A stretch of DNA of 64,000 nucleotides from Candidatus Woesearchaeota archaeon (GTDB taxonomy: Archaea; Nanobdellota; Nanobdellia; Woesearchaeales; UBA11576), in NCBI GenBank assembly GCA_018675335.1, contig JABGYH010000007.1:1-64000 (forward strand), written 5' to 3'. The notes beneath the pieces were generated by a model. It was not told where the DNA came from, did not search any database, and was given only the letters and a program-made list of their open reading frames with translations. Of this stretch, positions 39,792 to 61,598 are shown piece after piece. A program made the translations under genes and the position numbers. Each line of letters begins with the position of its first letter. Position 1 is the first letter of the stretch.

Positions 39792-39940
39792 AATAAACAC
39801 CTCGTTCTTTTATATAATAATGATTAATGACCAACCGAATATGAGTTTATATAATCAGCTGATATTTAATATTTTCTACATTTTAATTTTTAATTTAAAA
39901 AATTTAAGGTAATAATAAAATAATCCTTGAATATGACTGT

Positions 39941-42379: not shown

Positions 42380-42448
42380 TTTTATTAAATTTATTTTTTT
42401 AAATATTATGTTCTAAATATCATATTATAATTAAATATTAGTAAACTA

Positions 42449-43339
42449 TTAATTTTGATCATATTTTTTATGAACTAACTCTACAAACTTACCCCTAATG
42501 CCTTCTGATTGAGTTAACTTAATTGCCAATCTATCCAATGCCATAAATGCTTCAGGCATCCCTTGTTTTTTACCAATTTTATAAAAATCACTCAATACTC
42601 CATCAATAATAGTTACAATTTGATCTCCCGAAAATTGATTTTTAGATCCTTGAATAACTTTATGTTTTTTAATTCTAGATTTCAAATCTGCTAAATCTTT
42701 TGCATCAGAAATTTTATCTTTATTTCTTAATCCGCTTAAAGCTGAACTTAAACTTCGCTTCGGTTCTTTTTGAACTTGAGATTTATGTTTTTCTTCTTCT
42801 GTTAAATGACGAACTTCTTCAAGATTTTTTTTAATAAGACTTTCTTTAATCTTCCAAAGTTTTAATAATTCATTTTCTAAATGTTCCAGTTTAGATTCAT
42901 CTTTTTCAGACTCTTTTTCTTGTTTCTCAGTGTTTTCATTAGACTTTCGTCTAATTCTAATCCATAACCAAATCAATAATAAAATCGCTATTGCTGCAAT
43001 CCACCAATACCAAGGCAAAATAGAATCAGACTCTCCCTCGTTCACAACTGAAGTAGGATCATCCCCACTAAGTTCAAGATACTTGGAATTCCAAAGTGCC
43101 ATTAAATCAGAAGATCCAAAAACTGCTCCATTATCAGAATCTGCAGTCTCAACAAAAGACTTAATGTCATCTAATTCCTCAACAGAAATGCTTGAACTAA
43201 TAAGTGCTTTAATAAGATCATTAGACTCGCCAATTGTAGTTGTTACTTGAGCTTGATCTAGTGCTAAAACAAATGAAGAACTAACTAGTAATATAATCAA
43301 AAAAGGTACAAGTTTTAATAAATTAAATTTTTGTTTCAT
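42449..43339 (-). CDS. Signal-anchored protein with long cytoplasmic coil
   Basis: 296 residues. Signal peptide to about residue 26 (LLKLVPFLIILLVSSSFVLA), a 75-residue outside part, a membrane span (YWWIAAIAILLLIWLWIRIRR) near 107-125, then a charged helix (ENTEKQEKESEKDESKLEHL) and a small folded end. Type I topology. Function unknown; the external part could contact the 703-residue OmpA protein encoded just upstream (18-nt gap). Confidence 0.65.
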   Translation of the reverse strand: MKQKFNLLKLVPFLIILLVSSSFVLALDQAQVTTTIGESNDLIKALISSSISVEELDDIKSFVETADSDNGAVFGSSDLMALWNSKYLELSGDDPTSVVNEGESDSILPWYWWIAAIAILLLIWLWIRIRRKSNENTEKQEKESEKDESKLEHLENELLKLWKIKESLIKKNLEEVRHLTEEEKHKSQVQKEPKRSLSSALSGLRNKDKISDAKDLADLKSRIKKHKVIQGSKNQFSGDQIVTIIDGVLSDFYKIGKKQGMPEAFMALDRLAIKLTQSEGIRGKFVELVHKKYDQN

Positions 43340-43357
43340 CTTTTTTTAGTTTATTTT

Positions 43358-45469
43358 TTATTCAACCTTGAATTTATTATGTAATTCAAATAAAATCTTA
43401 CGAGCTTTCGATATTTTATCAACTGCTGCATTTCTTAAATCTCTTCTTTGATTTAAGTTAATTTCATTCTCTTCACAATTTAATAAACATAAACCCGGAT
43501 CTGCATCAAGCTTATTTGAGTCTTCAATTAATTTTTTAGCATCAATAAGTAACTTTTTAGCATTATCAAAATTTTCTTTATCAGTTTTAGATAATTCTGT
43601 GTGACCTTCTAAAAGATAAATAATACGTTTATCTTCAGGATTGTTTGGATTTAATTTAGTTTTTTGTACACACTGAGGATCTAAACATTTGTACCAGTCA
43701 GCACCTTGTTTTACAAAACAACCCAGATCATCAATGCACTTAACACCCTCAGGAACTTTTGACTCATCAAAAGGAGGAGGCATACATGCATCAACAGTAA
43801 AACTACCCAAAGAAGGCGCAGGCAAAAAACTAGAATAATCAGATCCAGTAAATGAAATAGATTCAGTTGATATTACTGCTCGCCTATCAGAACCAAAACC
43901 ATTATTTGAAAAAGTTTTTGGAATTTCACCAATAGGATGAATTTGAACCATAGGATTTGCGAAAGTTCCCATTGCAATTGCAATATCGGCAATTTTATGT
44001 TCAATTGATTGAGCACGCTTCTCTGCTAGAACCAAGTTCTTTTTAACTGATCCTTCAGGAGATGCGAACGTATAAATATGAATTCCAGTGCCTTGTGCTA
44101 ATGCACCACGAAGATAATCTTGAAGATCTGTGTCTGAGATTTTTGGCTCAGCCTTATTATAATCAAATTCTACGTCCAATCTACAAACACCATTGATTGT
44201 TTTTCCAACTTCTATTTTTTTAGGTTTTGTTTTAGTAGTTTTTTTTGGTGTTGATTTTTTATTTTGATCATTAATACAAATAACTTTGTCATTCATAATA
44301 GTATATGGATAATTCGTTCCTTCAAACTCTGCAGTACCCAGAACTTTAATTTTACTTTCGTAATCATCCCCTTTTTCAGTTAGGGTTTCTTTAGAATTAA
44401 AAATTGACTTAACATCATTAATCCACCAGTCACGAACTTCAACACATATTTTTTCATGCGCGCCTTCAATACAATGACATTCGGAACCTACATTAATATA
44501 TTGAGTGTAGTTTTTATTTTCACACTGAACTTTTCCTTGCTTTAATTCATACTCCACATTATTATACATTATATGAGTATCTTTGCCAGGAATTTTTGAA
44601 ACAACTCTACTAGGAATTTTAGAATGACAAGTTTTTGTGTCAGGAAGTTTATCGCCGTATTGACAAACAAACATGGCGCCAGAAATAAAACTATCAACTA
44701 AATAATCTCCAGCTAGTTCAGACTCACACATAAATTCAGGCAAATCTTTAGGTATACAAGCTTTTTTATCTCCTTGACCAAGATATCTAGAATAAGAAAC
44801 ACCATTAAAAAATAGATTATTTTGAGATCTATATTCCAAAGCAGTGTAAGTTAGTTGTTTTTTTTCTAAATTTACTCCTTTAGTTTCTTTAAGTACTAAA
44901 TGTTTACCTCTTAACGCATACTCTTCAGGATTTGTAACACCTATACATTGTTCAGATTTTTTATCGACTAAATCAACTGTTCTATCTTTAATAGCACCAA
45001 GATAATGCACTCTTAATTTAATTTTTCCATTAAACGGAGGGGAAACACCTAAACTTTTAAGTTTAGCATAAGTAATAATAATTTTTGAAAACCCTTTTTC
45101 ACCAGAATAAAAATATTCTTGAGTTTTATCATAACTAGCAAAATTAGAATTAATTGTTTGATACAAATAATTTTGATACGTTTTTTTAACAGGATCATTA
45201 TGAACATAAGTAACTTCTAATTTAAAGGGGGCGCTTTTAGGAGGGCAATTATCAGTTCCAACAGTGCGTTTACCATCAATTACAACTTTAAATGGAATTT
45301 CAACAGAATCAACTAAATTAAAATCATTACCACTACCTGGCTCGCCCCAATCAAGATCAAAATCACCACTAACAGAACTAATTTCGCAATCTAAACCAAA
45401 AGCAAATGAACTAGAAATTAGAAAGGTAATTACTACTAATAATGTTAATAAAAATTTTCGCTCACTCAT
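43358..45469 (-). CDS. Secreted protein with OmpA-like domain
   Basis: 703 residues. Signal peptide (LLTLLVVITFLISSSFAFG), a Cys-containing beta-rich extracellular part (27-420), then an OmpA-like domain about 428-537: CRLDVEFDYNKAEP, IYTFASPEGSVKKNLVLAEKRAQSI, PIGEIP, DRRAVISTES. A PAPSLGS linker and a charged helical end with further Cys follow. No membrane span, so secreted or lipid-free. The murein-contacting Asp is replaced (FAS-x-EG), fitting an organism without peptidoglycan. The mRNA site GAGG is adjacent to ATG 45469. Confidence 0.75.
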   Translation of the reverse strand: MSERKFLLTLLVVITFLISSSFAFGLDCEISSVSGDFDLDWGEPGSGNDFNLVDSVEIPFKVVIDGKRTVGTDNCPPKSAPFKLEVTYVHNDPVKKTYQNYLYQTINSNFASYDKTQEYFYSGEKGFSKIIITYAKLKSLGVSPPFNGKIKLRVHYLGAIKDRTVDLVDKKSEQCIGVTNPEEYALRGKHLVLKETKGVNLEKKQLTYTALEYRSQNNLFFNGVSYSRYLGQGDKKACIPKDLPEFMCESELAGDYLVDSFISGAMFVCQYGDKLPDTKTCHSKIPSRVVSKIPGKDTHIMYNNVEYELKQGKVQCENKNYTQYINVGSECHCIEGAHEKICVEVRDWWINDVKSIFNSKETLTEKGDDYESKIKVLGTAEFEGTNYPYTIMNDKVICINDQNKKSTPKKTTKTKPKKIEVGKTINGVCRLDVEFDYNKAEPKISDTDLQDYLRGALAQGTGIHIYTFASPEGSVKKNLVLAEKRAQSIEHKIADIAIAMGTFANPMVQIHPIGEIPKTFSNNGFGSDRRAVISTESISFTGSDYSSFLPAPSLGSFTVDACMPPPFDESKVPEGVKCIDDLGCFVKQGADWYKCLDPQCVQKTKLNPNNPEDKRIIYLLEGHTELSKTDKENFDNAKKLLIDAKKLIEDSNKLDADPGLCLLNCEENEINLNQRRDLRNAAVDKISKARKILFELHNKFKVE

Positions 45470-45760
45470 CCTCTTTTTTCACCAATTTTTGATTCAACGA
45501 ACCAAACGTAATTTGTTAATATACATTAAATATTAAAATAATATATTAAAATATACTAAAAATATACGATTAGTATACATTTGTTGTTTTATATTATATA
45601 AACATTTCGTTTTTAAAAATATTTTTTGAAAAATAATTTCTCGAATGTGAATTTATAAATAAAATTTAACAATTTTATATTTATTCCTGCCAATCGCAGT
45701 TTAACCCTGTCAATTGCAATCACAATTTTTTAAGATCCAAAAACTAACCCTAACAAAAAA
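45470..45760. other. AT-rich intergenic region, no ORF
   Basis: 291 bases, very AT-rich, with several TATAC/TATACT and TATTAAAATA stretches (45520-45590) and TATA-like sites for the 703-residue gene. A short near-repeat, CTGCCAATCGCAG then CTGTCAATTGCAA, lies at about 45688-45721. I see no RNA gene or ORF. Confidence 0.5.
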
Positions 45761-46750
45761 TTAAAAACTTACAAAATAAGTTCTAATTCTTACTAAATCC
45801 TCCACTATGTCAGGAGAAAAGGCTTTATCAAATTCTCTAAATGATCTAATTAAATGGTCATTAATTAAAGCATCAGAAGGACTGCTTCTTTTCATAAATT
45901 GAACAAGATTGGCAATTTTATACGGTGCTTTTTTATGAAGTAATAATTCAATTTGTTTTAAATTACGAGTTACAATAACTGCATCATTAACCGCAGTGGG
46001 ATTTAATGGAATCCAAATGTGCTTTGGATACTCATGAAAATGAATAAAATCTTTGCCATTTTTGTGATGATAATCGTCAACAATAGCATAATGACTACCA
46101 TGCCGGACTTTATGTTTAAGAACATGCTCTTTAATCACAGAATCATTTGAACCTTGAGCACGAATAAAAATAATATAGCGACAAAGTTCAGCTGCACTAA
46201 CTTCAGGCTGCATTTTTTCAACAACAGGGTTTGTTGCAATTGTTAAAACTTTTTCTAAAACATGTTTTGTGCAAGGAATCCACCCTGCAGGAATACCAGG
46301 AATGTGTTCTACTTCATGTAATCCTGCTAACATAACATGTTTTTGATGATAATTTAAAATTTGGAATTTTTTATTTCTAAACTTAATAAATTTTTGAACA
46401 AGCAATGTATGAACATTATTACTTGGTTCTGCCACATTAAATTCAAGAATTCTTAAAAACTCATCAACAGTAAGTTCATCTTTTTCTTCTAATTCTCCAC
46501 GAGCCGCACGTTCTTTTTTAATATCTCTAAATTTCGGCACTTCACGTCTTCTATCTGCGAGTTCATGTTCTTCTCGCTCAAACGCGTTTTCTTCACCCGC
46601 TACAGTTTGTTCTTTAGCTAAAGCATGATCAAGAGCTACCATTGCACCTTTAAAATCTATATTTTCAAACGCAGATCTAGCTTGAGCTATTTGTGCTGCC
46701 AAAGATTTAACATCCACAGGTTCGTTTTTGGGTAAAGGGACTGCAACCAT
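45761..46750 (-). CDS. Unknown soluble protein of the envelope cluster
   Basis: 329 residues, family not recognised, no signal peptide or span. N-terminal third helical (ARSAFENIDFKGAMVALDHALAKEQ resembles a single TPR-like helix pair). The rest is alpha/beta with several His (KHKVRHGSHYAIVDDYHHK, FHEYPKHIWIPL). Its upstream region holds a 35-bp direct repeat (46808-46870). Confidence 0.55.
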   Translation of the reverse strand: MVAVPLPKNEPVDVKSLAAQIAQARSAFENIDFKGAMVALDHALAKEQTVAGEENAFEREEHELADRRREVPKFRDIKKERAARGELEEKDELTVDEFLRILEFNVAEPSNNVHTLLVQKFIKFRNKKFQILNYHQKHVMLAGLHEVEHIPGIPAGWIPCTKHVLEKVLTIATNPVVEKMQPEVSAAELCRYIIFIRAQGSNDSVIKEHVLKHKVRHGSHYAIVDDYHHKNGKDFIHFHEYPKHIWIPLNPTAVNDAVIVTRNLKQIELLLHKKAPYKIANLVQFMKRSSPSDALINDHLIRSFREFDKAFSPDIVEDLVRIRTYFVSF

Positions 46751-46807: not shown

Positions 46808-46870
46808 AACATTTATTTGGACATAATATTTATTTTTCATGTAACATTTATTTGGATATAACATTTATTT
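46808..46870. repeat. Tandem 28-base direct repeat, 35-bp period
   Basis: 46808-46835 and 46843-46870 agree in 26 of 28 bases (both begin AACATTTATTTGGA). The second copy runs into the stop codon of the OmpA-like gene at 46865. Possibly promoter duplication for the 329-residue gene. Confidence 0.6.
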
Positions 46871-49006
46871 TGTAAAAGTAGACCATTGCCCACTAGCATC
46901 TTTATAACCATGAAGTTCATCAGACTCTAGACGAGTAAGATTGCCTGCAGGATTTCTATAAGTAATCGCATACCTATAATGATATTGACCATCAGGTTGG
47001 CCTGCAGGAGTTTGAAAATCCCAAATATGATTATGTTTTGCAACTAAATCATGAGTTGTTGGACTTACTGCACCAGGAGTTCTAATTTGAACTTTTGCAC
47101 TTAAAACATCAGTTGAATCATTATGATAAATAAATAAAACACTACCATCAGGATTTACAATTGGCGACACTGTTAATTTTTCTAAACGATTAATTAATCT
47201 TGTTGCGCGATTATATCTTGAATGAAATAAATGATAAAATTTTTCATTAACTAATCTTTCAGCTTTCCTTAACACATAACCAGTTTCGATAAAATCATCT
47301 CTTAATCTAACACGATCAGCACCAGTCAATCCAGGAATAAACGAAGCATCATCAAATAATTTTTTAACTGCTCTTTTCATCCCAGTAATAGATTTTGTTT
47401 GAAGTGCTTTTTTTAATTTAGCCATTTCTTGATTATAAGCAGGACTTGCTAAATACCCTCGAGGAAGATTATGCATGGTGTGCGATAGAACATGAATCTT
47501 TTTTTGTGCGAGTAAAAGTAACCGCCTTATTTGATCCAGTTCAGTATTAAGAGTTCTATTCCTATCAGTAAACTTACGAAAACCAAAAGCTCCGCCAAGT
47601 ACTAGTAATAATATCCCTCCAATTATTAATGCCCAAGCCCACCAAGGCAAACTTGATCCAGAATTGTTTGATGCAATACACGAACCATCAACACATTCTT
47701 CTCCTGAAGCACAATCTGAATCATCAAGACAAGTTTTTTTCGGAGGAGTTGGAATTACACAAGCACCATTAACACATTTTTCTCCCGCTTTACACTCGCT
47801 ATCTTTTGTACAAACTGGAGGAGGAATAGGCATAGGAATACATTTTCCATCATCACACTTCTCTCCCGCCTTACAATCTTTATCAACTTTACAAACAGGA
47901 ACTGGTGGAACTTCTTTTTCACAATCAAAAATTGAAGATCCTAAACTTGGAGCAGGAGTAAACACGCCCAATGATTGAGTTGAAATAATAAATCTACGAT
48001 TAGGAGGATATGTACCATCAAATAGATCAGTTTCACCTTCACCACTAACAGAAACACTTAATCCAACACCCACTGAATTAATTTCAGACTCAACAGTTTT
48101 TGCTCGCCTAGTACTTAAACCAGCATTATGGGATTCACCACCTTCTTTTGATGCGAACCCATAAACATAAACTTGATTTATACCTGCAGCTTTAACTCTT
48201 CTAGAAAAATCTGCGATATTACCTTTAGTAACAAAATCAATTGTATCATATTTAAAATTACCATCTAAACGACAAATGCCTTTTTTTACAGGAGTTGTAC
48301 CACCTGAGCCTTTGCCATCATCCGAACCAGTTCCACCTAACCCCGCACCAGATGCTCCACCTGAAGTACCAGATCCAGAATCTCCAGATCCACTAGAACT
48401 ACCGTCAAACCAACTCGGATTAATCCACTTAGCAAGACCTCTCATTCCTGGAACAAGACCTTCCATACATTGAGGATCATTACGATTAGGTTCCATTAAG
48501 CAAACGTAATTAATTGCAATATTGAATAATACAAATGCAAGAATACCTGCAAGAACACCTGCAACTATTTTAGAAGTCCAAGACTCACCACCAATAAGTG
48601 CATCATTACTCAGAATACCATATAATACAAGCCAGAATATAACCAGCATAAAATTCTTTGCGATAGGAAATAAATTAGTAACAGAAAAATTAGTAACAGT
48701 CACAATTGCAAATGAAAGTAAACAACCAATAGCAAAAGATAACCCTATAACTGCACCTTTTGCAGAACCAGCATTACCAAATCCACCACCAAACCATTTT
48801 GAAAAAGCAAGAAATGCTGCTGCGAAGAATAACGTGAAAAATAAAAAGAAATCAATCATCTTACTATAATTTTGATATTTTCCTTGCGAAAAAAAACTAT
48901 TAATTGAATCAAGTGGACCCGCACTAACTGAAGATGCGAAAATACCAATTAACGAAATAACTAAAACTAGTAATAAAATTGCCTTTAATGCTCCCTTTTT
49001 ATTCAT
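46865..49006 (-). CDS. Membrane protein with OmpA-like domain and Cys motifs
   Basis: 713 residues. Signal or first span (1-30), four to five spans (50-170), a Gly/Ser linker, an OmpA-like domain at 243-345 (CRLDGNFKYDTI, YGFASKEGGESHNAGLSTRRAK, GEGETDLF, NRRFIISTQS), the PAPSLGS linker, three copies of C-x5-C-x5-C-x4-C (372-442), a span (WWAWALIIGGILLLVLGGAF) at 455-474, and a cytoplasmic helical and beta end. The span-to-outside-to-span layout puts the OmpA and Cys parts outside. TATA box near 49040. Confidence 0.75.
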   Translation of the reverse strand: MNKKGALKAILLLVLVISLIGIFASSVSAGPLDSINSFFSQGKYQNYSKMIDFFLFFTLFFAAAFLAFSKWFGGGFGNAGSAKGAVIGLSFAIGCLLSFAIVTVTNFSVTNLFPIAKNFMLVIFWLVLYGILSNDALIGGESWTSKIVAGVLAGILAFVLFNIAINYVCLMEPNRNDPQCMEGLVPGMRGLAKWINPSWFDGSSSGSGDSGSGTSGGASGAGLGGTGSDDGKGSGGTTPVKKGICRLDGNFKYDTIDFVTKGNIADFSRRVKAAGINQVYVYGFASKEGGESHNAGLSTRRAKTVESEINSVGVGLSVSVSGEGETDLFDGTYPPNRRFIISTQSLGVFTPAPSLGSSIFDCEKEVPPVPVCKVDKDCKAGEKCDDGKCIPMPIPPPVCTKDSECKAGEKCVNGACVIPTPPKKTCLDDSDCASGEECVDGSCIASNNSGSSLPWWAWALIIGGILLLVLGGAFGFRKFTDRNRTLNTELDQIRRLLLLAQKKIHVLSHTMHNLPRGYLASPAYNQEMAKLKKALQTKSITGMKRAVKKLFDDASFIPGLTGADRVRLRDDFIETGYVLRKAERLVNEKFYHLFHSRYNRATRLINRLEKLTVSPIVNPDGSVLFIYHNDSTDVLSAKVQIRTPGAVSPTTHDLVAKHNHIWDFQTPAGQPDGQYHYRYAITYRNPAGNLTRLESDELHGYKDASGQWSTFTK

Positions 49007-49170: not shown

Positions 49171-52100
49171 TTAGTTCGAATCTGCTTCGGATTTGGGTTT
49201 TGATCTTTTTAACCTTGCCCACTTTGGCCAAAATGAAGGAGACTCCAATACCTGCTCTTCTTTTGCTTTTCTACCCACAACATAATCTAATGCGTCAAGA
49301 TTTGATTTATTTTCTGAATCAGACGAGGTACTTGCACGATGAATTTGAAATTTACCTTCAGTTGAAATTGCAAGCCACCCCCCATAACTCCTATTATAGA
49401 AATTAGACATTCCAAAATCAATATTATAACGAGCAGTATCTTTTTGTTTGAATTGCCGATTTGCAAGCGCAATACTTTGAGGCTCAGTATGCCCGTGAAC
49501 TAATGCAACATAACCTAATTTCTTAATTGGATTTTGCTCATCAAATAAAGTATTCTTTGTTTTTTTATTTTCAATATTATACCATTCCCACACACGACCA
49601 TTTTCATCACCTGCAAATAACGGAGTTTGTGGTCCAAATACATCACTTACTTGAATATTATCAGCACGTATTCTTGATTGTAATTGCATACAACAATCTA
49701 AAAATTCCCGTCTATCAAAAAATCTTTTTTCTTTTTTAATAACTGGAATTCCCGCATGAACAAATAAAATATTTGAATCAACATGCATAACTTGAATTGA
49801 TTCTTTTAAAAATTTAAAATAATCATTAACAAACAATCCAGAGTACCAAACTTTTGCGTGAAGCAATGCAGGATTTAACCTACTCAAAAATGAAGCATAT
49901 GTTCCATCTAATTCTGCAAGAACTGATTGAATCGCAACATATTCTTTTAACCTTACACCATACAAATAATTAAACATCTTTTTACTGCCATTATCTTCTG
50001 ATCTTCTATCATTGACAAACCACTGAGACATCAATTCAATATTATGTGCAGCCATACCACTTAAACCACCTAAAAACATACCTTCATGATTACCACACAA
50101 CATTACAAATTCATCAGCAGGTGCTTGAGATTTTAAATGCTTAAGCAAATCAAGAACCATAAAGGTTTGCCCTCCACGATCAACATAGTCCCCAATAAAA
50201 ACTACTTTTTTACCACCAATCCAGTCGAGATTATTATTAATTATTTTTGCTTGCTTTAAAACATTAGCTAGACGGAAAAAATCGCCATGAATATCCCCAA
50301 TTGCAACTATTGGTTTTTTAGGAGTTTTATTTTTTATTTCAGATTTAAAATTAATATGAAATTGCTCCCACTCAAAAATATTTGATTTTTTAACTAAATT
50401 AAATACGAACCCAAATTCTCTTTCTGAATCTAACCAAATAACATCTCCATCATTAAGTATGCATTCAGTTTTAACCGAATCAGTATTAATTATCATCCCA
50501 GTTCCTGATTTGTTTTCTAAACAATACCCGTTAGCAGAATGAGTTATACAAAATTGACTAGGAACTAACCCCCTAATAGTTGAAGGTTCTAACTCCTCAT
50601 GATAACGCAGATCTACAAATCTAATAACAACATCAGATTCATTAGATGTTCCAAATGAAATTTCTTTTTTATTTAACAAAATTTCTCGATTTGTTATAAG
50701 TTCAGAATCATCACATAAAAATTCAACATCCTCAACACTACCAATAATAGAATCAGGATGTTTATGAACTGCAACATGCGGGGTCAAAACTCCCACTAAC
50801 ACAGGAATTTTCTCAGATTTTAATTTCCTAATATGCACAATAAACTCTTTAATCTGAGTTATTTTTTCATCAGGATACGCAATTTCTTGAGCTAACACAA
50901 ATGCTCTCTCCATTAATACTAATGCAGCATCATATCGCTCATTAAAATACAAACTAACTGCTTGATTTTCAATACCCACTTGCAAAATTTCTTTTTCAGT
51001 TCTTTCTCGTTCATTTTTTAAATTATTCAATTCTAATTCGGTTTGTTTAAATAAAGTTTCTGACATCAATAACTTCCTAGACAAATCACTAATTTGCCCA
51101 TTTAAACGTTCAACATCTGCCTCAATTCTTAGTTTATCAGATTGTTCTTGTGCTAATTTTTCTCGCATACCTCTAAGTTTTGCAACCATCAAAAGACCTA
51201 GCCTGTTTAACCTTATATTCTCTTGACTTGCCATTGCTGCTGTTTGTTGAGACTCAGCTAATTCTCGCCCCATATCGCCAGCAGCAGAATTTGCAACTTG
51301 TGCTTGTCGTTTCAACTCAGCAACAACAACTGCATGAGCCTGCCCTAATTCAGCAATTCTTTGACCTTGCCTAATTTGTAAATCTTCAATCTGCCTCACA
51401 TGATGCTCAGTTAATTTTGTAATTCTTGTTGCAACCGAATCAGATCCATCTGCACTTTGTTCATTTGACTGAGTTAATGCCGCAACACTCAATTCATGTT
51501 GTTGATTCATTCTTGCAATTTCCCCTGCATGAGCCGCAGTTAAATCTGCAAGTTTTGTTTCGTGTTGTTGAGTTAGTGAAGCAATTTTAGATTTATGATC
51601 TTCATTTTGATTATCCAATAATGAAACATAATTATCAATCCCTTCTGATAATTCTTGGATTGTAAGATCACTACTTGCCAAATCACCCCTCAATATAGAT
51701 ACATTTTCTCTTAAAAATTTAATTGCTTGACTTTGTTCTAACACCAGTAAACTTACTGAAGACAAAACACTTTGTGCACTTACTTGAGATTTTCTAACTG
51801 CAGATTTCAATTTAGTTCCCATTTGAACTGCATGATCAGACGCTAATTTCATGGAGCGTGCTAAGCGAGATGAATGATCTGATCCTGAACCTAAAGAATT
51901 ATGTGACCCAATTACTTCTGCGCGCAAAAGATCAATCTGTCTAACAACTTCCCCATAATCTTTTTGTGATTTTGCAACTTCACCTTTAGACACGTCAAAT
52001 TTGGAATGTTCTTCTTGTAATTGACCCGTCAGTGACGCAATACGCAACATCAATTCACTAATTAAAGATTCATATTCTGAAACTCGTCTTAAAAGCATAA

Positions 52101-54174
52101 TCCTAGTTTTTGTAAATGCTTCAGAAATACTTTTTGTCTCATCGACCAAGCTATCAATTTTTTCTTCGCAAGCACTAATTAACTTAAGCACTCTTTTAAT
52201 TTCAGATTTTACAAACGAGATATCATCATTAATTCTCGCTGTTTCTTCCTTAAGAAGATTAGGATCTGAAATTAACTGAGGAAGTTCAACTAATTTTTTA
52301 AAATATAATTTTTCAAAAGAATTTAATTCAGTTAATTGAGAATCTAATTCTTCAAGCAATTCTAATGATGATTTAATTTGAGCAGCAATAGAATTATCTA
52401 AAAAAGATAAATCAAGAACTGCTTCTGAACGCGAAGAAATATCTTGAACTAAAGAAATAAGTTCTCTGTGAATTTGAGCTAATGCAAACTCATAATTTTC
52501 TTTTTCTTCTTTGTGTTTAGCAACAAGTTTTTGAAATGCTTCCACCCAGAAAATATTAGAGTCCTCAGTTTCTGATCTGTTTTGTGCGTAGGCTAACTCT
52601 TTTTCTAATTCAACTTTTTCTTTTTGTAACTCACTAAATCTTTGGTCAAGTTCTGCAAGACGCGCCTTCGCATCTTTTGTTTCTACCCAAAATTTTTCTG
52701 ATGCTCGAGCTAAAATATCAATTAATTCTTTTAATTCTCCCGTAATTTTTGATTGAACTTGTTTTTGTTCGACTAATGTTTTGGATGTTTTACCCTTATT
52801 TTCTTTAATTTTTTGATGCTGCTGTTCCGCTTCCAATCTTTGCTTTGCAAAAAGACCTGATTCAGATTCTAATTGTTCAATAGTTCTTGTAGTAACACTT
52901 AATTTAGATTTGATAATTCCCAGTTCAATACTTAACTCTCTAATTTTATCTTCATTAGTTTGAGATTTTAAGTTTTCTTTTTTCAACAATTCTTCAACAT
53001 GTTTTTCAGATAAATCTAAAACTTCAAAATGAAGATACAATAATTCAGTTAATTTTCTACAAATAAAATCCAAATCAGTTAAAACATAAGTTTTATGCTG
53101 ATACCTAGAATTAACTCTACCCAAAACAGATTCTAATTCAGACAATAAATCAATTAAATTAACAGTTGCGTCAAATTTTGCCTTAATTTTTTTAGATGTA
53201 ATTGATTTGGACTTCAAAGACTTAACAGTTTTTTTAGCTGCAGCAAATAAAGATTTTAATTTATGATCTAACTCGGATTGAGCAGTTAACTCTTCTGCAA
53301 GACGAGCATTTAAGAATGTAAGTTCATTTTTTTTGAATAACAATAAATCTTCCAACGCATGAATACTTTTTTCTGCTTGTTGATCTAATAACTTATTGCG
53401 TCCACGTTCAAATTCTAAATCTTCTTTTTGAACTTTTAATGATTTAGCAGCTACTGCTTGAACATGCACAATAATTCCACGTAACAACTCTTTCTTTTTT
53501 TCAAATAATGCACTCATTCGAATAGCATTTTCCTTAATTGATCTAAGCTCTGCTGCTCTACTTTTATACGCTGCAGGTTTTTTTGCCTGAGATAAATGTT
53601 TATTATACGCAACTGAAACATCCTCAACTTGTTTACACAACTCAGTTAGATAACCAAATTGTTGTTCAGTAACAGATAATTCCCCAATTAAATTTATTAG
53701 ATCGTGATCTTCTTGACTTGCCAAATAAACTAATGCTTCTAAGTTGCCATCAAACGAATCAAATGCGACTTTTGACTGATTAAGCTTAGCAATTGTTTCT
53801 TCAAGTTCGGATTTTTTTGCAGAAACTTTTTTTACATCTGCTTGAAGTCTTTTAAAAATTTCCTCTGCAAGTTTTAATTCAACCCTATTGTGCCGCCTAA
53901 GATCTGAAACATCAGGAGATACTTTTTGTTCTACTTTTGCCACAACCCCTAACTGGTCACCAACAGTTTCAGCAGCTTCTAAATTAGCAGGAACTGCAGT
54001 TAATAAATCATCCACACTAATTTGTTCCGCTGCAGTTTCACGACTAAACTCAGCAGTTTTTCTAGCAATATCCTCTTGATCTAAACTAAGTGGAGGAATA
54101 ACAGTATCGCTTCCACTAGTTTTGCGAGCCTTTTTACCTTTCCCAGGCAATAAATTTTTTAGCCACCTACTCAT
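49171..54174 (-). CDS. Giant coiled-coil protein with FHA and PPP phosphatase domains
   Basis: 1667 residues. About 80-1080 is long coiled coil, with Glu, Lys, Leu and Gln heptads. A TPR-like helix pair lies near 1080-1100 (NERYDAALVLMERAFVLAQEI). A FHA domain covers roughly 1145-1265 (IGSVEDVEF, ISFGTSNESDVVI, GYCLENKSGTGMII, LNDGDVIWL). A PP1/PP2A-type phosphatase covers 1285-1600 with GDIHGDF, GDYVDRGG, GNHEGMF, HAGIP and HGHTEP. No membrane span. It could be a scaffold that binds phosphothreonine and removes phosphate. Overlaps the next gene by 8 nt. Confidence 0.8.
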   Translation of the reverse strand: MSRWLKNLLPGKGKKARKTSGSDTVIPPLSLDQEDIARKTAEFSRETAAEQISVDDLLTAVPANLEAAETVGDQLGVVAKVEQKVSPDVSDLRRHNRVELKLAEEIFKRLQADVKKVSAKKSELEETIAKLNQSKVAFDSFDGNLEALVYLASQEDHDLINLIGELSVTEQQFGYLTELCKQVEDVSVAYNKHLSQAKKPAAYKSRAAELRSIKENAIRMSALFEKKKELLRGIIVHVQAVAAKSLKVQKEDLEFERGRNKLLDQQAEKSIHALEDLLLFKKNELTFLNARLAEELTAQSELDHKLKSLFAAAKKTVKSLKSKSITSKKIKAKFDATVNLIDLLSELESVLGRVNSRYQHKTYVLTDLDFICRKLTELLYLHFEVLDLSEKHVEELLKKENLKSQTNEDKIRELSIELGIIKSKLSVTTRTIEQLESESGLFAKQRLEAEQQHQKIKENKGKTSKTLVEQKQVQSKITGELKELIDILARASEKFWVETKDAKARLAELDQRFSELQKEKVELEKELAYAQNRSETEDSNIFWVEAFQKLVAKHKEEKENYEFALAQIHRELISLVQDISSRSEAVLDLSFLDNSIAAQIKSSLELLEELDSQLTELNSFEKLYFKKLVELPQLISDPNLLKEETARINDDISFVKSEIKRVLKLISACEEKIDSLVDETKSISEAFTKTRIMLLRRVSEYESLISELMLRIASLTGQLQEEHSKFDVSKGEVAKSQKDYGEVVRQIDLLRAEVIGSHNSLGSGSDHSSRLARSMKLASDHAVQMGTKLKSAVRKSQVSAQSVLSSVSLLVLEQSQAIKFLRENVSILRGDLASSDLTIQELSEGIDNYVSLLDNQNEDHKSKIASLTQQHETKLADLTAAHAGEIARMNQQHELSVAALTQSNEQSADGSDSVATRITKLTEHHVRQIEDLQIRQGQRIAELGQAHAVVVAELKRQAQVANSAAGDMGRELAESQQTAAMASQENIRLNRLGLLMVAKLRGMREKLAQEQSDKLRIEADVERLNGQISDLSRKLLMSETLFKQTELELNNLKNERERTEKEILQVGIENQAVSLYFNERYDAALVLMERAFVLAQEIAYPDEKITQIKEFIVHIRKLKSEKIPVLVGVLTPHVAVHKHPDSIIGSVEDVEFLCDDSELITNREILLNKKEISFGTSNESDVVIRFVDLRYHEELEPSTIRGLVPSQFCITHSANGYCLENKSGTGMIINTDSVKTECILNDGDVIWLDSEREFGFVFNLVKKSNIFEWEQFHINFKSEIKNKTPKKPIVAIGDIHGDFFRLANVLKQAKIINNNLDWIGGKKVVFIGDYVDRGGQTFMVLDLLKHLKSQAPADEFVMLCGNHEGMFLGGLSGMAAHNIELMSQWFVNDRRSEDNGSKKMFNYLYGVRLKEYVAIQSVLAELDGTYASFLSRLNPALLHAKVWYSGLFVNDYFKFLKESIQVMHVDSNILFVHAGIPVIKKEKRFFDRREFLDCCMQLQSRIRADNIQVSDVFGPQTPLFAGDENGRVWEWYNIENKKTKNTLFDEQNPIKKLGYVALVHGHTEPQSIALANRQFKQKDTARYNIDFGMSNFYNRSYGGWLAISTEGKFQIHRASTSSDSENKSNLDALDYVVGRKAKEEQVLESPSFWPKWARLKRSKPKSEADSN

Positions 54175-56023
54175 TTGTCACCTTCGATTCTCCACCTATT
54201 TTTGGAGTTGGAACTATTGAATCTGAACTAACTGGATTAGAACTTACATTACTAGAATCATCAGGAGTTTCAGATGTACTTGGAAGGAGTTGAGATGGAT
54301 CTGTTGATTTTTTGAACTCTGCCTCGCATGCGTTAATCTTATTTGTGCAAAATTCTATCTCCCCAGTACAAAGTTGAATTAAATTATCTAATCGGACAAT
54401 TACTTTTTTTAATTCATTACGACGAACATCAGGATGAATAATTTTATTTGCGACTTCTGCAAAAGATTTGCTATCTTCAAACTGTTTTTTTGCAGTTGAA
54501 AAATACTTAAATGCATCAGCATAAGTTTTTTCTGCGAATTTGGTTTCACCAATTTCTTTTGCTTCAATTGCTGAGTTTTTTAGAGTTACAGATAAACCTT
54601 CAAATGCAATTGCTTTTTCCCCTTCTAAACTTCTTAAATCTAAAATTTTAGAATCCAACTCATTACTTAAACTAACGATTAATTGGAAATAACCATACTT
54701 AATTCTAAATCTTTGTTCTACATCCAAAGAAGTTGAAACTAAATTTGCAATACCACTCTTTAAATTGACCCAACCCTCGACTTTTTTTAACCCTTCAAAT
54801 AAATCTCTAACTTCACTATAAACTTTCTTTAGTCGTTCTTGATTATTAATCCGCTCAGAATGAATAACTTCAAAACTCAGTTCATCAGTAAATTGATCAT
54901 ATTTTCTCTTTTTAAAATCTAGAAGTAACTTTAACTGATCAGCATTTATTGCTATTAATTTATATGATTTGTCTAAAGTTCCAAACGCATTTTCAACTTG
55001 TTTTTTTTCTAATAAATCAATTTTTTCAAAAATTTGACTCATCGCAGGAATCCTAGATACTAAAGTATTAATAACATCTTTAATTGCGTTAAAATAGTCT
55101 TTTTCGTCACCACACTTAGTTGGAAGATGTTTAAGTTTAGTGCTAATATTTCTTGATAAATCAAATTCTTTAATTTTTTCTATTACTTTACCAACAACAG
55201 AAAGATCCTCCCGATCAGTTCTTTTATCTTTGACATGTTGGTTTAGCCATTCAAAAGTAACTTTACATCCTGCATCCTTACTAAAAAAATCAGTTTCTTC
55301 TAAAGATAATTGTTCTTTTAATTTTTTTAATTTTGTTTTCAAAACTAAATTTTGATCTTCCAAATATTTAATGAAATCACGAACTCGTTTAAACTCAACT
55401 TCTTCTTCAGCTTTAATTGGATCTGGATCTGACTCGTTTTCGTCCACACCGGTCTTTTTTGAAGAACCATCATTTTCTTTATGTGGTGCACTATCCGCAG
55501 CAGCATTTTCATCATCTTCATTTTCTGAAGCCTTTTTAGAATACCGATTCCTAACTTTACCTGCAATTGCAAGAACAACTAATAACACTAAACATATTGC
55601 AACACCAATAAAAATCCATTTAATTATATTCCAACCACTCCACGAACTAGAACTTTCTGAGTTAGACGATTCACAATTATTATCTTCACAAGTTTCAGTT
55701 GAAAGACAATCAGAATCAGAATTACACTTAAGATTTTTTGAATTAGATAAAGCTCTTGCTTTATTAATAAATGCATTTTTAACAAGTGCAGTATCTTTTG
55801 CAGCCAAATATGCTGGAGATGATTTTATTTCAATTAATTGATCTCTACTCGCATCTTCAATTGAATTAAATAAAGCAGTATTTCTAAAAGTTTCTAACGA
55901 TTTAATTTTTGAACTAACTTCTTTTGAGGATAACGCAAAAACAAATACTGCAGATGAGATTAACAAAATAGTTAAAACTAGTAAAACCAAACTACCATAT
56001 TTTAACATTTTATTTGAAGTCAT
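54167..56023 (-). CDS. Signal-anchored coiled-coil protein with Cys motif
   Basis: 618 residues. Signal peptide (GSLVLLVLTILLISSAVFVFA), an outside part of about 90 residues ending in the motif CNSDSDCLSTETCEDNNC (C-x5-C-x5-C-x4-C), a span (WIFIGVAICLVLLVVLAIAG) near 135-160, a charged linker and about 400 residues of cytoplasmic coiled coil. The tail is Ser/Thr/Pro-rich. Its Cys motif matches the three in the 713-residue protein. Start overlaps the 286-residue gene by four bases. Confidence 0.7.
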   Translation of the reverse strand: MTSNKMLKYGSLVLLVLTILLISSAVFVFALSSKEVSSKIKSLETFRNTALFNSIEDASRDQLIEIKSSPAYLAAKDTALVKNAFINKARALSNSKNLKCNSDSDCLSTETCEDNNCESSNSESSSSWSGWNIIKWIFIGVAICLVLLVVLAIAGKVRNRYSKKASENEDDENAAADSAPHKENDGSSKKTGVDENESDPDPIKAEEEVEFKRVRDFIKYLEDQNLVLKTKLKKLKEQLSLEETDFFSKDAGCKVTFEWLNQHVKDKRTDREDLSVVGKVIEKIKEFDLSRNISTKLKHLPTKCGDEKDYFNAIKDVINTLVSRIPAMSQIFEKIDLLEKKQVENAFGTLDKSYKLIAINADQLKLLLDFKKRKYDQFTDELSFEVIHSERINNQERLKKVYSEVRDLFEGLKKVEGWVNLKSGIANLVSTSLDVEQRFRIKYGYFQLIVSLSNELDSKILDLRSLEGEKAIAFEGLSVTLKNSAIEAKEIGETKFAEKTYADAFKYFSTAKKQFEDSKSFAEVANKIIHPDVRRNELKKVIVRLDNLIQLCTGEIEFCTNKINACEAEFKKSTDPSQLLPSTSETPDDSSNVSSNPVSSDSIVPTPKIGGESKVTNE

Positions 56024-56880
56024 TTTTTTGATTGAGTGTTTTGAGCAGGAGTTACCTGAGAGGACGTTTTAGCTTTTAATTCGGATTTTAATTGATTAAG
56101 AGATACAATATGACCTTGCGCTAAATTTGCATCTTCAAGATTTTCAGGAGATGTATCTGACAAAAACTTAGTTGCGGCAACTAATCGAGGATCATTATCA
56201 GACCCAGGTTCACCAACTTTTGAAGAATCATCTGATTTTGATTTATCATCAGAATTTGAAGAACTAATATCTCCAAGACCTAAATGGCCTAAAATTGAAT
56301 CCGATCCAAACATTTTTTTCAAAACTGAATTTGAATTACATGAATTATCATTACAAACAGTGACTATCAGAAAATAAAATATCACACAAGAAAGTATTAG
56401 TGCAAGAACTAATGCAATAATTGCTTTACCCGCACCTTCACCCAGAACTTTTCTAATAACCCAAAATAGCCCCCCCATTAATGCAAAGAATAAAATAATC
56501 ACACTAATTGGAAGAAGTTTAGTCACAGTAATTTTTCCTCCAAAAACAAGTCCACCAGTAAGGGCCGCACCAATTGCTAAAACTGCTAAATAAACTGCAG
56601 CGTTATTTCCCTCTCCCCTAAATTTTTGAAGTCCCATAAATGCTATGAAGCAATAAATAATCATAAAAATAAGAAAATCACCAAATGACGGAGTATCATC
56701 AAATGCGAATAATTTTTTCATTGAATTTCCAACTGCAGCCAAAGGTGCTGCTTCAGCCACTTCTGCAAACAAAGAAAATGCAAATAAACCAATAAGTAAA
56801 ACTAACAAAAACTTCAAACAATTATTTGAACTCAATATTGTATTTATTGAATTTCGTTTTTTTGTTGTTTTTTTATTCAT
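56020..56880 (-). CDS. Polytopic membrane protein of the envelope cluster
   Basis: 286 residues. A signal-like segment (FLLVLLIGLFAFSLFAEVAEAA) is followed by four to five spans to about residue 180 (AIGAALTGGLVFGGKITVTKLLPI, then VIRKVLGEGAGKAIIALVLALILSCVIFYFL). KITVTKLLPI aligns with NFSVTNLFPI in the 713-residue protein, so the membrane parts look paralogous. The end is charged and Ser-rich. Four-base overlap with the downstream gene. Confidence 0.68.
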   Translation of the reverse strand: MNKKTTKKRNSINTILSSNNCLKFLLVLLIGLFAFSLFAEVAEAAPLAAVGNSMKKLFAFDDTPSFGDFLIFMIIYCFIAFMGLQKFRGEGNNAAVYLAVLAIGAALTGGLVFGGKITVTKLLPISVIILFFALMGGLFWVIRKVLGEGAGKAIIALVLALILSCVIFYFLIVTVCNDNSCNSNSVLKKMFGSDSILGHLGLGDISSSNSDDKSKSDDSSKVGEPGSDNDPRLVAATKFLSDTSPENLEDANLAQGHIVSLNQLKSELKAKTSSQVTPAQNTQSKK

Positions 56881-56942: not shown

Positions 56943-58799
56943 TCATGCTGCTTTTTGATTTTGTACTAAACTTAACTCAGGTTTTGAGTTTGAATCTGAC
57001 GAACTATTTTGAGATTTATCTGACGAGCGTGAAACTACATTTGCAGATTTTGCATGTTTTTTTGTAGCAATATCTTTTGCAGAAAAAATACGACTCAATC
57101 CAAATGGCAATCTAAGATAATGTTTTTCTAATGGAGGTTCGCCAAGTTTAACTCTTATTTGCTCATCTTTTAATTTTCTATAAAATGCAATTTTTTGTTT
57201 TAAATTATGAATATCATTCAATAATTGTTTAATTTTAGCATCCCGTTTAGAAACATTCGATTTTATTCTTTTGTCTAATGTAACTATAAAACCAGAATTA
57301 TCATTTGCAGCAGTAAATAACTCAACAACCCGTTCTGGATCTGCCCCTTTAAAATTAGATGTTGCAACACTCCCAATAAAGTCTTCTCGTTTTGATTTTT
57401 CTTGTTGCGCTACAACCGCCAAACTATGATAATGCATAATAACTGATTTCGCAATTGCAAAATTACGATACAACTCACTTTCATCAGTTTGAATTTTTTT
57501 TAATGAATTAAGTTCATGACTCAACCCCTTTGAAAGTTTATGCGCTCTATCACTAATTGATTCAATAAATGCAACTTGTACTTTTTGAGATTTTTTCTTT
57601 AACTCTTCAAAGTATAATTTAACAATAACCTTAACTTGAGCTACTGCTTCATGCTCAACTTTACTCAACCTATCCCCTGATTTAAGATTTGAAATTAAAG
57701 AATTTAATAATTCAACAGGATTTCTTTTTGAAAACTGAGTTCTAAAAATAGTTGCATAAGCTTTATCTTTATACCTGCTTTCTAAAATTTGAGCAGTATT
57801 TTCAATTAAATGCGCTAAAACAATATCGGACAATATTGCAATCATGTTATTATCATTATAATTATTATCAAACTTACTCAAATAACTCACAATTGCTTTT
57901 GCAATAATTGTTGACGGTGAATCTTTTAAGTTCAATTGAGCCCAATAATCTGGAACGTTTTCATCAATTCCAAACGCAACTAAATAATCTATAATTTTTT
58001 GCCCATCTTTTTTTGAAAAATCTTGCAATAACTGAGCCAACGGTTTGGAGTTAACACTTGCAAGAATTTTTTTTACTGCAAATAACACAGTTACAAAAGT
58101 ACTTTTCTTATTTGTCAATAAGTCTTTGAAATGTTCTAATGCTTTTACTTCTTCAAACAACTTACCCAAAAATACAATTTTGTCAGATTGAGCTAGTTTT
58201 TTTTCTAACTTACTTTTTGGAAAATGTTTTTCAACATAATCAACAAATTGTTCAAAATACGAAACAAAATGAACAACATCTAAATGAAATACTTCTCCAC
58301 TAGCAAGATTGTTTTTTACAGAAGTAAAAAAACCAACATCTTGTTGAGGGGGAATTAACTTTTTAGCTACAAATTTTTTCATTAGTTTCGTTAACTTTGT
58401 TGCCAGCTCAGAATCATGAAAATTTGTGGTCAACCATTTACAATACTCATCTAAATGAGGTAAAAACGTATGGAAAAAGAATTCTGAAACTCTTAAACTT
58501 TTACCTGAATCTGCAAGTAGAGTTTCTAAATGCTCAAGTTCTCTACCCATCAAAGTATGAGCAAATCTTTTTCTAAACCTGCCATATAATTCGAATGTAT
58601 CTGAAAATTCAACAAATAAATCATCTAATTCTTTTGCTGCAAGTTTGAAATCAGCAGGAAGATTAGATCTGTTCACCGCAGGAGTATTTTGAGTAACTAC
58701 TCTTAAATTCGTTTTGTTACTAGCTGCATTTACTGCACTCGCAGGGTTTATGTTTGATCCAGCTACAGGACATTGATTTGAAATATTTGGTACAACCAT
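56943..58799 (-). CDS. Helical cytoplasmic protein, 618 residues
   Basis: 618 residues, nearly all helical, with heptad stretches near the end (RDAKIKQLLNDIHNLKQKIAFYRKL). No signal peptide or span; Ser/Asn-rich tail. No family recognised. A scaffold role alongside the other coiled-coil proteins is likely. Confidence 0.62.
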   Translation of the reverse strand: MVVPNISNQCPVAGSNINPASAVNAASNKTNLRVVTQNTPAVNRSNLPADFKLAAKELDDLFVEFSDTFELYGRFRKRFAHTLMGRELEHLETLLADSGKSLRVSEFFFHTFLPHLDEYCKWLTTNFHDSELATKLTKLMKKFVAKKLIPPQQDVGFFTSVKNNLASGEVFHLDVVHFVSYFEQFVDYVEKHFPKSKLEKKLAQSDKIVFLGKLFEEVKALEHFKDLLTNKKSTFVTVLFAVKKILASVNSKPLAQLLQDFSKKDGQKIIDYLVAFGIDENVPDYWAQLNLKDSPSTIIAKAIVSYLSKFDNNYNDNNMIAILSDIVLAHLIENTAQILESRYKDKAYATIFRTQFSKRNPVELLNSLISNLKSGDRLSKVEHEAVAQVKVIVKLYFEELKKKSQKVQVAFIESISDRAHKLSKGLSHELNSLKKIQTDESELYRNFAIAKSVIMHYHSLAVVAQQEKSKREDFIGSVATSNFKGADPERVVELFTAANDNSGFIVTLDKRIKSNVSKRDAKIKQLLNDIHNLKQKIAFYRKLKDEQIRVKLGEPPLEKHYLRLPFGLSRIFSAKDIATKKHAKSANVVSRSSDKSQNSSSDSNSKPELSLVQNQKAA

Positions 58800-58835
58800 T
58801 TTTTTATTTTTTTTAACTTATGTTCTAACTTAATT

Positions 58836-60332
58836 TTAAGATGAAAAAGCAGGATCTAACTGACCTCCTGAGTTTTTATCATCTTTTGATTCCGAACTTG
58901 TTCCTTCTTTTTTTGCAGGAGTGCTAGGATTTGGTGAATCTGACTTGGCGTTGTTTTTACTACCAAATAAATTTCCAATACCACTTCCGATAAATCCAAA
59001 ACTCCTACGCCAAAGAGGGGGTTTATCAACTAAACCAATAGTATCTTTCATAGAAGTTTTAGTTCGTTTCCAATTATCCATAGAATCTTGAAGATCTTTA
59101 ATCGCTTCAGGATCTTTCATATGCAACTCTCGGAAATATTTTTTAAAATCTCCTTTAACCTTAGATTTAGGAATTCCAAGTTTTTGAGCAACTTGCCCAA
59201 TAATTCCATCTTGAAGTTCTGCATCTAATTTTTCTTCATCAGAATCAAAATTAAGAAGTGGAATTGCCCCAGATAATCTTGCTTTTAGAGGATGACCTTC
59301 TTCAATTAATTGATCAACTCTAGTACGCTCTTTTTCTGATAGATTCTGATAAGTTTCAGACCAATTCTTCCCCACATTTGAAAGAATATTTTTTACATGC
59401 CCAATTAAAATCCCAACAATAATCCAAGTAAGAATTGCCTCTGCTGATCCAGGACCAGGATTTGTTTTGAAGGGATTCCACACAATTAAACTTGAATTCA
59501 CATCAACATTAGTTATAATAATTTGAACAAATGCGAAAGCTAAACCAAAAATAAATCCACTAGGTTTATCACTATTCATATTTTGGTGAAGATTAAAACT
59601 TAAAGCCATAAGAGCTGCCCACCCACCAATTAAAACTGCAATTGCCCTAGTCATCCCATCATTAGCAAATGAAAATGCAATAAATGCAGGAATAATAAAT
59701 TCCATATAAAAACCGTCAGGCAATCCAAGTTTATCTTTAAAAATAACAAACACAAATATTAAACTAACAAATGCTGCGATAAATGCAGGTAACCCTTCAC
59801 CATTCGTTCCAGTCTTTAATACTCCTTGATCAACATCTTTTGGAAAATCGCTTAACACATAAGCTCCAGGACTATTATTAACTTGAGTACAACCAATCTT
59901 TGACTCTCCATTATCACAACCCCAACCCATTACTTTGTATTCGAGGAAAGTTTTTTGCTCCCAAATATATTCTTGAGGCTCAACTAACATTGACTTTGTT
60001 ATCAAAACTGCTACGACAAATACCATTGCCCAAGCAACATACTTACTTGAGTTATCAGAAAATTTACTTCCCAAAAATACCATAAATAACACGAATAAAA
60101 CACCACAAGTTGCAAGTGTTGAAAGTATGAACTGTTTTGTCAAATAATTTAATTTAAACTCCTTAAACTTAACTTTATACTCTCCAAACTTAGATTTTGC
60201 GCCTGAGAATTTACTTTTGAATGTATCTTTAAAACCTGCTTCAACCGCAAGAGAACAAACGAACATAAATAATACTAATGAGATTAACAAAAACACAATT
60301 TTTCTTTTTTTGTTTTTATTTAGTTTATTCAT
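58836..60332 (-). CDS. Polytopic membrane protein, 498 residues
   Basis: 498 residues with a signal-like start (VFLLISLVLFMFVCSLAVEAG), two further early spans, a Cys-containing outside loop (GWGCDNGESKIGCTQV), six or so later spans to about residue 325, then a soluble tail of 170 residues ending in a Ser/Lys/Asn-rich segment. No family recognised. It starts 43 nt after the AAA-ATPase gene. A possible channel or assembly platform of the cluster. Confidence 0.65.
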   Translation of the reverse strand: MNKLNKNKKRKIVFLLISLVLFMFVCSLAVEAGFKDTFKSKFSGAKSKFGEYKVKFKEFKLNYLTKQFILSTLATCGVLFVLFMVFLGSKFSDNSSKYVAWAMVFVVAVLITKSMLVEPQEYIWEQKTFLEYKVMGWGCDNGESKIGCTQVNNSPGAYVLSDFPKDVDQGVLKTGTNGEGLPAFIAAFVSLIFVFVIFKDKLGLPDGFYMEFIIPAFIAFSFANDGMTRAIAVLIGGWAALMALSFNLHQNMNSDKPSGFIFGLAFAFVQIIITNVDVNSSLIVWNPFKTNPGPGSAEAILTWIIVGILIGHVKNILSNVGKNWSETYQNLSEKERTRVDQLIEEGHPLKARLSGAIPLLNFDSDEEKLDAELQDGIIGQVAQKLGIPKSKVKGDFKKYFRELHMKDPEAIKDLQDSMDNWKRTKTSMKDTIGLVDKPPLWRRSFGFIGSGIGNLFGSKNNAKSDSPNPSTPAKKEGTSSESKDDKNSGGQLDPAFSS

Positions 60333-60374
60333 TTTTGTTAGTTAATAGAGTAATTGAATTTATTTTATCGAGAG

Positions 60375-61577: not shown

Positions 61578-61598
61578 CTTTGTTCTCGCAAAACTCAA

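Follow-up and report, generated by a model that had tools for sequence, protein, structure and literature searches.

A long coiled coil, a degenerate FHA fold and a PPP phosphatase in one chain, encoded in a putatively envelope-associated operon of Woesearchaeota

Abstract

We have found, in a Candidatus Woesearchaeota archaeon, a 1,667-aa protein that joins a long coiled coil, a degenerate FHA domain and a PPP phosphatase domain in a single chain (49171..54174 (-) of the window, the 64,000-nucleotide stretch of DNA that was analysed). We propose, with a probability of roughly 0.55, that it is a PPP phosphatase tethered by its scaffold within an envelope-associated Woesearchaeota complex, acting on the phosphoproteins of that complex, with the FHA domain as a docking or structural module. 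FHA domains paired with a phosphatase are already known; what appears to be new, and was not found elsewhere in our searches, is a single chain that carries both FHA and PPP on a coil of 1,000 residues. The most interesting part is that one operon scaffold occurs in two forms, one with three FHA units and one with FHA and PPP.

Results

Reading frame and coil

In the ORF scan of the window, 49171-54174 (-) is a single uninterrupted frame of 1,667 codons that opens with ATG, and its coding-frame GC pattern is uniform over the whole length (third-position GC 0.16-0.21). The original prediction had placed coil, FHA and phosphatase in one chain and had named the join of two adjacent ORFs by a sequence error as the finding that would overturn it. 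Such a join is ruled out, because a genome of the same genus (G001) has the identical order of parts in one 1,610-aa ORF, syntenic and within the equivalent operon; the frame is real. When genome contigs were scanned with the single 1,667-aa protein no relative was found, and the scan with an alignment returned one contig, that of the same-genus Candidatus Woesearchaeota archaeon isolate SI073_bin58 (G001). Identity between the two orthologues is 45% in the PPP region, 32% in the FHA domain and 26% in a BLAST segment over coil residues 35-834; G001 retains the predicted architecture and all of the PPP motifs, its coil having diverged.

The coiled-coil region covers residues 1-1070 (50965..54174 (-)). 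Its heptad periodicity exceeds that of shuffled sequences at z of at least 2.4, and up to 5.1, in nine of the first eleven 100-aa blocks; the weaker blocks are residues 201-300 (z 2.1) and 901-1000 (z 0.8), and past residue 1100 z is 1.6 or less. The coil has a weak match to SMC_prok_B, and hydropathy predicts no membrane segment in it or elsewhere in the protein. The long scaffold of about 1000 residues that had been expected is real, at about 1,070 aa by heptad periodicity. Ahead of the FHA domain, residues 1064-1124 (50803..50985 (-)) form a helical segment, tentatively a TPR-like hairpin, as judged by sequence inspection and by a low-confidence first structure model (pLDDT 52-65 there). 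That model, built from two alignment rows, had a pLDDT of 32 and was set aside for fold assignment.

The phosphatase domain

The PPP phosphatase domain occupies residues 1283-1622 (49309..50328 (-)) and was recognised by Pfam Metallophos (E 5.9e-13), by PDB sequence matches and by structure alignment. It combines the PPP fold with every motif of the superfamily (GDxHG, GDxxDRG, GNH(E/D), HxG and GH), here GDIHG (residues 1293-1297, 50284..50298 (-)), GDYVDRG (1328-1334, 50173..50193 (-)), GNHE (1361-1364, 50083..50094 (-)), VHAG (1472-1475, 49750..49761 (-)) and HGHT (1560-1563, 49486..49497 (-)), the last being of the bacterial type. The full catalytic site that had been described is indeed present, with all motifs intact. 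The label "PP2A-type" that came with it was rejected: the last motif of PP1 and PP2A is of the R-A-H-Q type, that of the present protein contains GHT, and the nearest structures are the Shewanella cold-active protein-tyrosine phosphatase (PTP), ApaH and Arabidopsis RLPH2.

By sequence, the nearest PDB chains among the best 60 of 101 matches were the Shewanella PTP and RLPH2 (E ~5e-10), followed more weakly by BSU1 (4e-6), PP1 (6e-5 to 1e-4) and PP2A (6e-4 at best); a PDB search with a two-orthologue profile gave an agreeing order. Structure alignment ranked the Shewanella enzyme first (1v73, Z 22.8), then the integrative model 9a7j (22.2), ApaH (20.9 and 20.3), and PPZ1, PP5, PP1 and PP2A (18.5 to 19.5). 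In Foldseek the Shewanella enzyme was again the best structure match, with an Ap4A hydrolase at rank 4 and RLPH2 at rank 5. In both sequence and structure the domain is closest to the tyrosine-type, bacterial-like PPP enzymes. It scores 26.1 bits against the NCBIfam ApaH model, for which the family equivalog cut-off is 176, and so falls outside ApaH; Pfam finds Metallophos alone and the fold is PPP, which sets it apart from a KAPP-type PP2C. Because of these relatives, and because RLPH2 prefers phosphotyrosine according to the accessible portion of PMC12817480, we lean to protein phosphotyrosine as the putative substrate. A nucleotide might also serve, since the structural match to ApaH is almost as good (Z 20.9 vs 22.8). 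A stretch of about 70 residues between GNHE and VHAG is of low confidence (residues 250-323 of the AlphaFold2 model).

The FHA domain

Residues 1125-1263 (50386..50802 (-)) adopt an FHA beta-sandwich in the AlphaFold2 model of residues 1125-1640 (mean pLDDT 76, pTM 0.68), with Foldseek TMt values of 0.73 to 3hx1, 0.71 to 3poa, 0.69 to 6i2p and 0.64 to 1gxc. The 14 alignment rows behind this model included some of FHA only and some of PPP only, and its FHA part leaned on FHA relatives because some rows covered FHA alone. The call rests on homologues and fold, since Pfam FHA (PF00498) gave no match in the 1,667-aa protein at E<=1, nor at E<=0.1 in a search of its own genome (G000). The two-orthologue profile matched FHA stretches in three genomes of a sister genus (G002, G006 and G008; E 1.2e-6 to 3.0e-8), and the G006 homologue lies above the Pfam FHA cut-off (49.7 bits, residues 1392-1476). 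A profile of eight FHA units run against the PDB gave weak matches to FHA chains (CHFR at E 0.0027, EmbR, Rad53 and ArnA) and also to the non-FHA chains Exo70 and vicilin.

Five residues are conserved in FHA domains, Gly, Arg, Ser, His and Asn, and the phosphopeptide is touched by the Arg, the Ser and the Asn, as stated in the accessible text of PMC4037201. Both orthologues keep only the Gly (Gly1175 in the 1,667-aa protein). The pocket Arg is replaced by Thr1176, and by Thr1130 in G001; S-x-x-H is absent from both, with Ser1206 changed to Glu in G001; and the Asn is Thr or Glu. With Arg, Ser, His and Asn lost, we take this to be an FHA fold that lacks the phosphothreonine pocket, and the designation "phosphothreonine-reading" falls for both orthologues. 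The FHA units of the sister genus and of a further genus (G007) retain more of the pocket, with G-R and S-R-N-H in the first G006 unit and S-R-H-H in one G007 unit.

The PF00498 search of the own genome matched a different protein, on contig C5. At about 50108-51184 (-) on that contig there is a 358-aa protein in which a canonical FHA domain (PF00498) precedes what is by eye a caspase-like domain. In the window, the neighbouring 812-aa operon protein (39941-42379 (-)) has a weak FHA-like stretch; with an hhalign probability of 29.6, we do not claim an FHA domain there.

Occurrence of FHA and PPP in one chain

The domain order had been called unfamiliar, and the database search that had been suggested bears this out. 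Among 352 genomes of the order, the two-orthologue FHA-PPP profile matched 13, of which eight had PPP only, three FHA only, and two, the window's own genome and G001, both domains in one match. Among 371 genomes of the phylum, a draw from which G001 is absent, it matched three, and both domains were present in the window's own genome only. Our literature searches, insofar as the sources were accessible, found no FHA-PPP fusion, and a viral fold search returned ordinary phosphatases and some FHA-RING proteins. An FHA profile matched six of the ten genomes of the family (G000, G001, G002, G006, G007 and G008) and 1 of 342 other genomes of the order; the misses in G003, G004, G005 and G009 may reflect absence or incomplete assemblies.

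The closest PPP domain outside the window's genus lies within a 10,066-aa ORF of G153. This frame (contig C7, 8938-39137 (+)) is open at the contig end and has TPR, GGDEF (E 2.5e-18), PPP and HEAT matches. Frames of 12,045 and 7,993 codons on contig C21 of G033 and contig C18 of G093, respectively, also contain a PPP-like domain each.

Genomic context

The genes from 38868 to 61598 (-) are co-directional. Around the phosphatase gene they overlap, by 8 and 4 nt, and elsewhere they are separated by gaps of 18 to 291 nt. A gene for a 618-aa protein with two predicted membrane segments (54167..56023 (-)) runs over the start of the phosphatase gene by 8 nt, and next to it is that for a 286-aa protein with five (56020..56880 (-)); the two correspond to one fused 962-aa gene in G001. 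On the other side lies a 713-aa membrane protein with an OmpA domain (Pfam OmpA 2.4e-7) and Cys-rich repeats (46865..49006 (-)), a conserved operon member by an order-wide search, with 47% identity in G001. Beyond it are genes for proteins of 310, 812, 296, 703 and 329 aa (38868..46750 (-)), whose order is kept in G001, and at the far end are those for a second 618-aa protein, a 498-aa protein with seven predicted membrane segments and a 407-aa ATPase-like protein (56943..61598 (-)). The operon also encodes further proteins without a known family. In the G001 segment, each of the ten genes looked at has its counterpart in the window, in unchanged order. The operon is common to several genera of one Woesearchaeota family. 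No described function for it was found in the literature searches, within the accessible text of the sources.

The window encodes three OmpA-like proteins of this archaeal genome, at 43358-45469 (-), 46865-49006 (-) and 62067-63998 (+). The third is 1,611 aa long and continues past the window; its match in G008 is a divergent gene next to the operon. Elsewhere in the window (18960-20213 (-)), the C-terminal part of a 417-aa protein resembles outer-membrane beta-barrel repeats by eye, with no Pfam match at E<=0.01.

Protein-kinase domains occur in all ten family genomes, nine of them above the cut-off. The window itself encodes a 627-aa Ser/Thr kinase (21257-23140 (-); Pkinase E 4e-29). Searching the other nine family genomes at E<=1e-10 gave no homologue of it; we do not claim it as a partner, and for this reason assign no writer kinase.

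The three-FHA form of the sister genus

In G002, G006 and G008, the operon counterpart of the phosphatase gene encodes a protein of 1,668-1,687 aa with a coil and three tandem FHA-like units, and no PPP. These counterparts carry two N-terminal membrane segments, whereas the 1,667-aa protein has none. They are flanked by homologues of the 310-, 713-, 286- and 498-aa proteins and of the ATPase, the 310-aa match in G006 sitting at a contig end. In G007 the frame ends at the contig end, and the FHA-like units adjoin operon homologues. The sister operon also includes a papain-family protease-like protein (G002, L044:8532-10472 (-), Peptidase_C1 E 6.9e-9), with a like gene on contig C74 of G006.

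How the single FHA domain corresponds to the three units was compared pairwise, and most pairs favoured unit 2. That of the 1,667-aa protein gave z of 13.0 with G008 unit 2, 8.2 with G002 unit 2, 5.2 with G006 unit 2 and 10.1 with G006 unit 3, and that of G001 favoured sister unit 2 (z 10.6, 10.2 and 6.4). For the linker after the FHA domain as a swap junction, shuffles reached the observed score in fractions from 0.002 to 0.44 over six pairs. Since the pairwise z do not all point to one unit and the linker test is mixed, we dropped the notion that PPP replaced the third FHA unit; judged from sequence, the relation that we claim between the forms is fewer FHA plus a PPP.

Discussion

In the mechanism that we favour, the coil of about 1,070 residues would hold the catalytic domain inside an operon-encoded complex of membrane proteins, OmpA-domain proteins, the ATPase-like protein and others that belong to no known family. 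Beside the enzyme, the FHA domain would be a docking or structural module and not a phosphothreonine reader, and the PPP domain would strip phosphate from proteins of that complex, counteracting at least one protein kinase of the genome. We infer an active protein whose substrates are proteins of the complex, and a complex that assembles at the envelope. The envelope location is read from the neighbouring genes only, and is less sure because the 1,667-aa protein, unlike the sister-genus forms, is without a membrane segment.

The original prediction held that the protein could sense and erase the same mark, the FHA domain binding a partner's phosphothreonine for removal by the fused PPP in a feedback switch. 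An FHA fold does adjoin an intact PPP, and NIPP1-PP1 and Sulfolobus PP2A with ArnA/ArnB, as far as the accessible source text describes them, are precedents in trans. The sequence nonetheless gives the idea no support, because a working phosphothreonine pocket is needed and its residues are lost in both orthologues, where only the Gly of the five is kept and Arg is Thr; the nearest PPP relatives, moreover, are tyrosine-type. Such a switch would be possible only with non-standard binding by the FHA domain, and we consider it quite unlikely. Another possibility is a PPP domain that cleaves nucleotides (diadenosine tetraphosphate or capped RNA ends), as ApaH and ApaH-like enzymes do, and that the scaffold concentrates at the envelope for stress sensing. 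The ApaH structures (Z 20.9 and 20.3), the Ap4A hydrolase at Foldseek rank 4 and the 26.1 bits from the ApaH model speak for this; that score is far below the cut-off of 176, however, and by sequence the PDB search points to the Shewanella PTP and RLPH2 (E ~5e-10), with no ApaH chain in the best 60 of 101; we regard it as unlikely.

That the PPP is active in what is mainly a structural coil, part of an envelope or cytoskeletal filament in which phosphatase output matters only for assembly or disassembly, is suggested by the weak SMC-like match and by the sister-genus forms. These have the coil and the FHA array but lack PPP, so that within this small sample a scaffold role is the more common. 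Heptads alone, however, do not reveal the oligomer state of a coil, and this explanation, too, seems unlikely. Finally, the PPP domain might keep its motifs as a pseudo-enzyme that serves as a phospho-dependent docking module, its site covered by the low-confidence stretch between GNHE and VHAG. Since neither orthologue has lost a metal-ligand motif, and the PPP domain is the best-kept part of the protein, this is very improbable. A tethered phosphatase acting on its own complex stays our preferred reading.

The sister-genus form provides a natural comparison, as readers stand there where the eraser is in the window's genus. A further reading, which we put forward as doubtful, is a reader-to-eraser swap on one scaffold. 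The array of at least three phospho-reader FHA domains on the envelope-operon coil of the family would in one genus have been reduced to one FHA, its pocket dead, and a tyrosine-type PPP would have moved into the space left. A hub for phospho-dependent assembly would in this way have become one with its own phosphatase, in an uncharacterised surface machine of Woesearchaeota. Almost no signalling has been studied in the host lineage. Should the complex be a surface or contact machine, its phosphatase would offer a handle on how these tiny archaea control it.

Comparison with known systems

The PPP fold and motifs are shared with the Shewanella cold-active PTP (1v73, 2z72 and 2zbm) and with Arabidopsis RLPH2 (5vjv); in the searches made, neither turned up with an FHA domain or with a long coil. 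Plant KAPP has an FHA domain and a phosphatase in one chain and a membrane receptor as partner. It differs from the 1,667-aa protein in that its phosphatase is PP2C and not PPP, and in domain order and coil. PP2C is also the class of PppA, the phosphatase of the type VI secretion (T6SS) threonine-phosphorylation pathway (PpkA, Fha and PppA). In that pathway, as far as the sources available in part describe it, an FHA protein lies in the gene cluster of an envelope machine, with a kinase and a phosphatase, which recalls the present case; PppA, however, is a separate chain.

Two further systems pair separate proteins. ArnA (FHA) and ArnB act with PP2A in the archaellum control of Sulfolobus, and are not known to have a long coil. 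The pair is like ours in setting an archaeal FHA protein beside a PPP phosphatase and unlike it in that the chains are separate, the accessible portion of PMC7472852 describing PP2A as binding ArnA and ArnB. In eukaryotes, the FHA domain of NIPP1 recruits phosphoproteins to PP1, according to the available text of PMC5645368, and so likewise brings an FHA domain beside a PPP phosphatase for substrate choice. NIPP1 and PP1 are two chains, and the recruiting FHA of NIPP1 stands against a degenerate pocket in the archaeal protein. The woesearchaeotal protein is a covalent version of this FHA and PPP pairing known from separate proteins.
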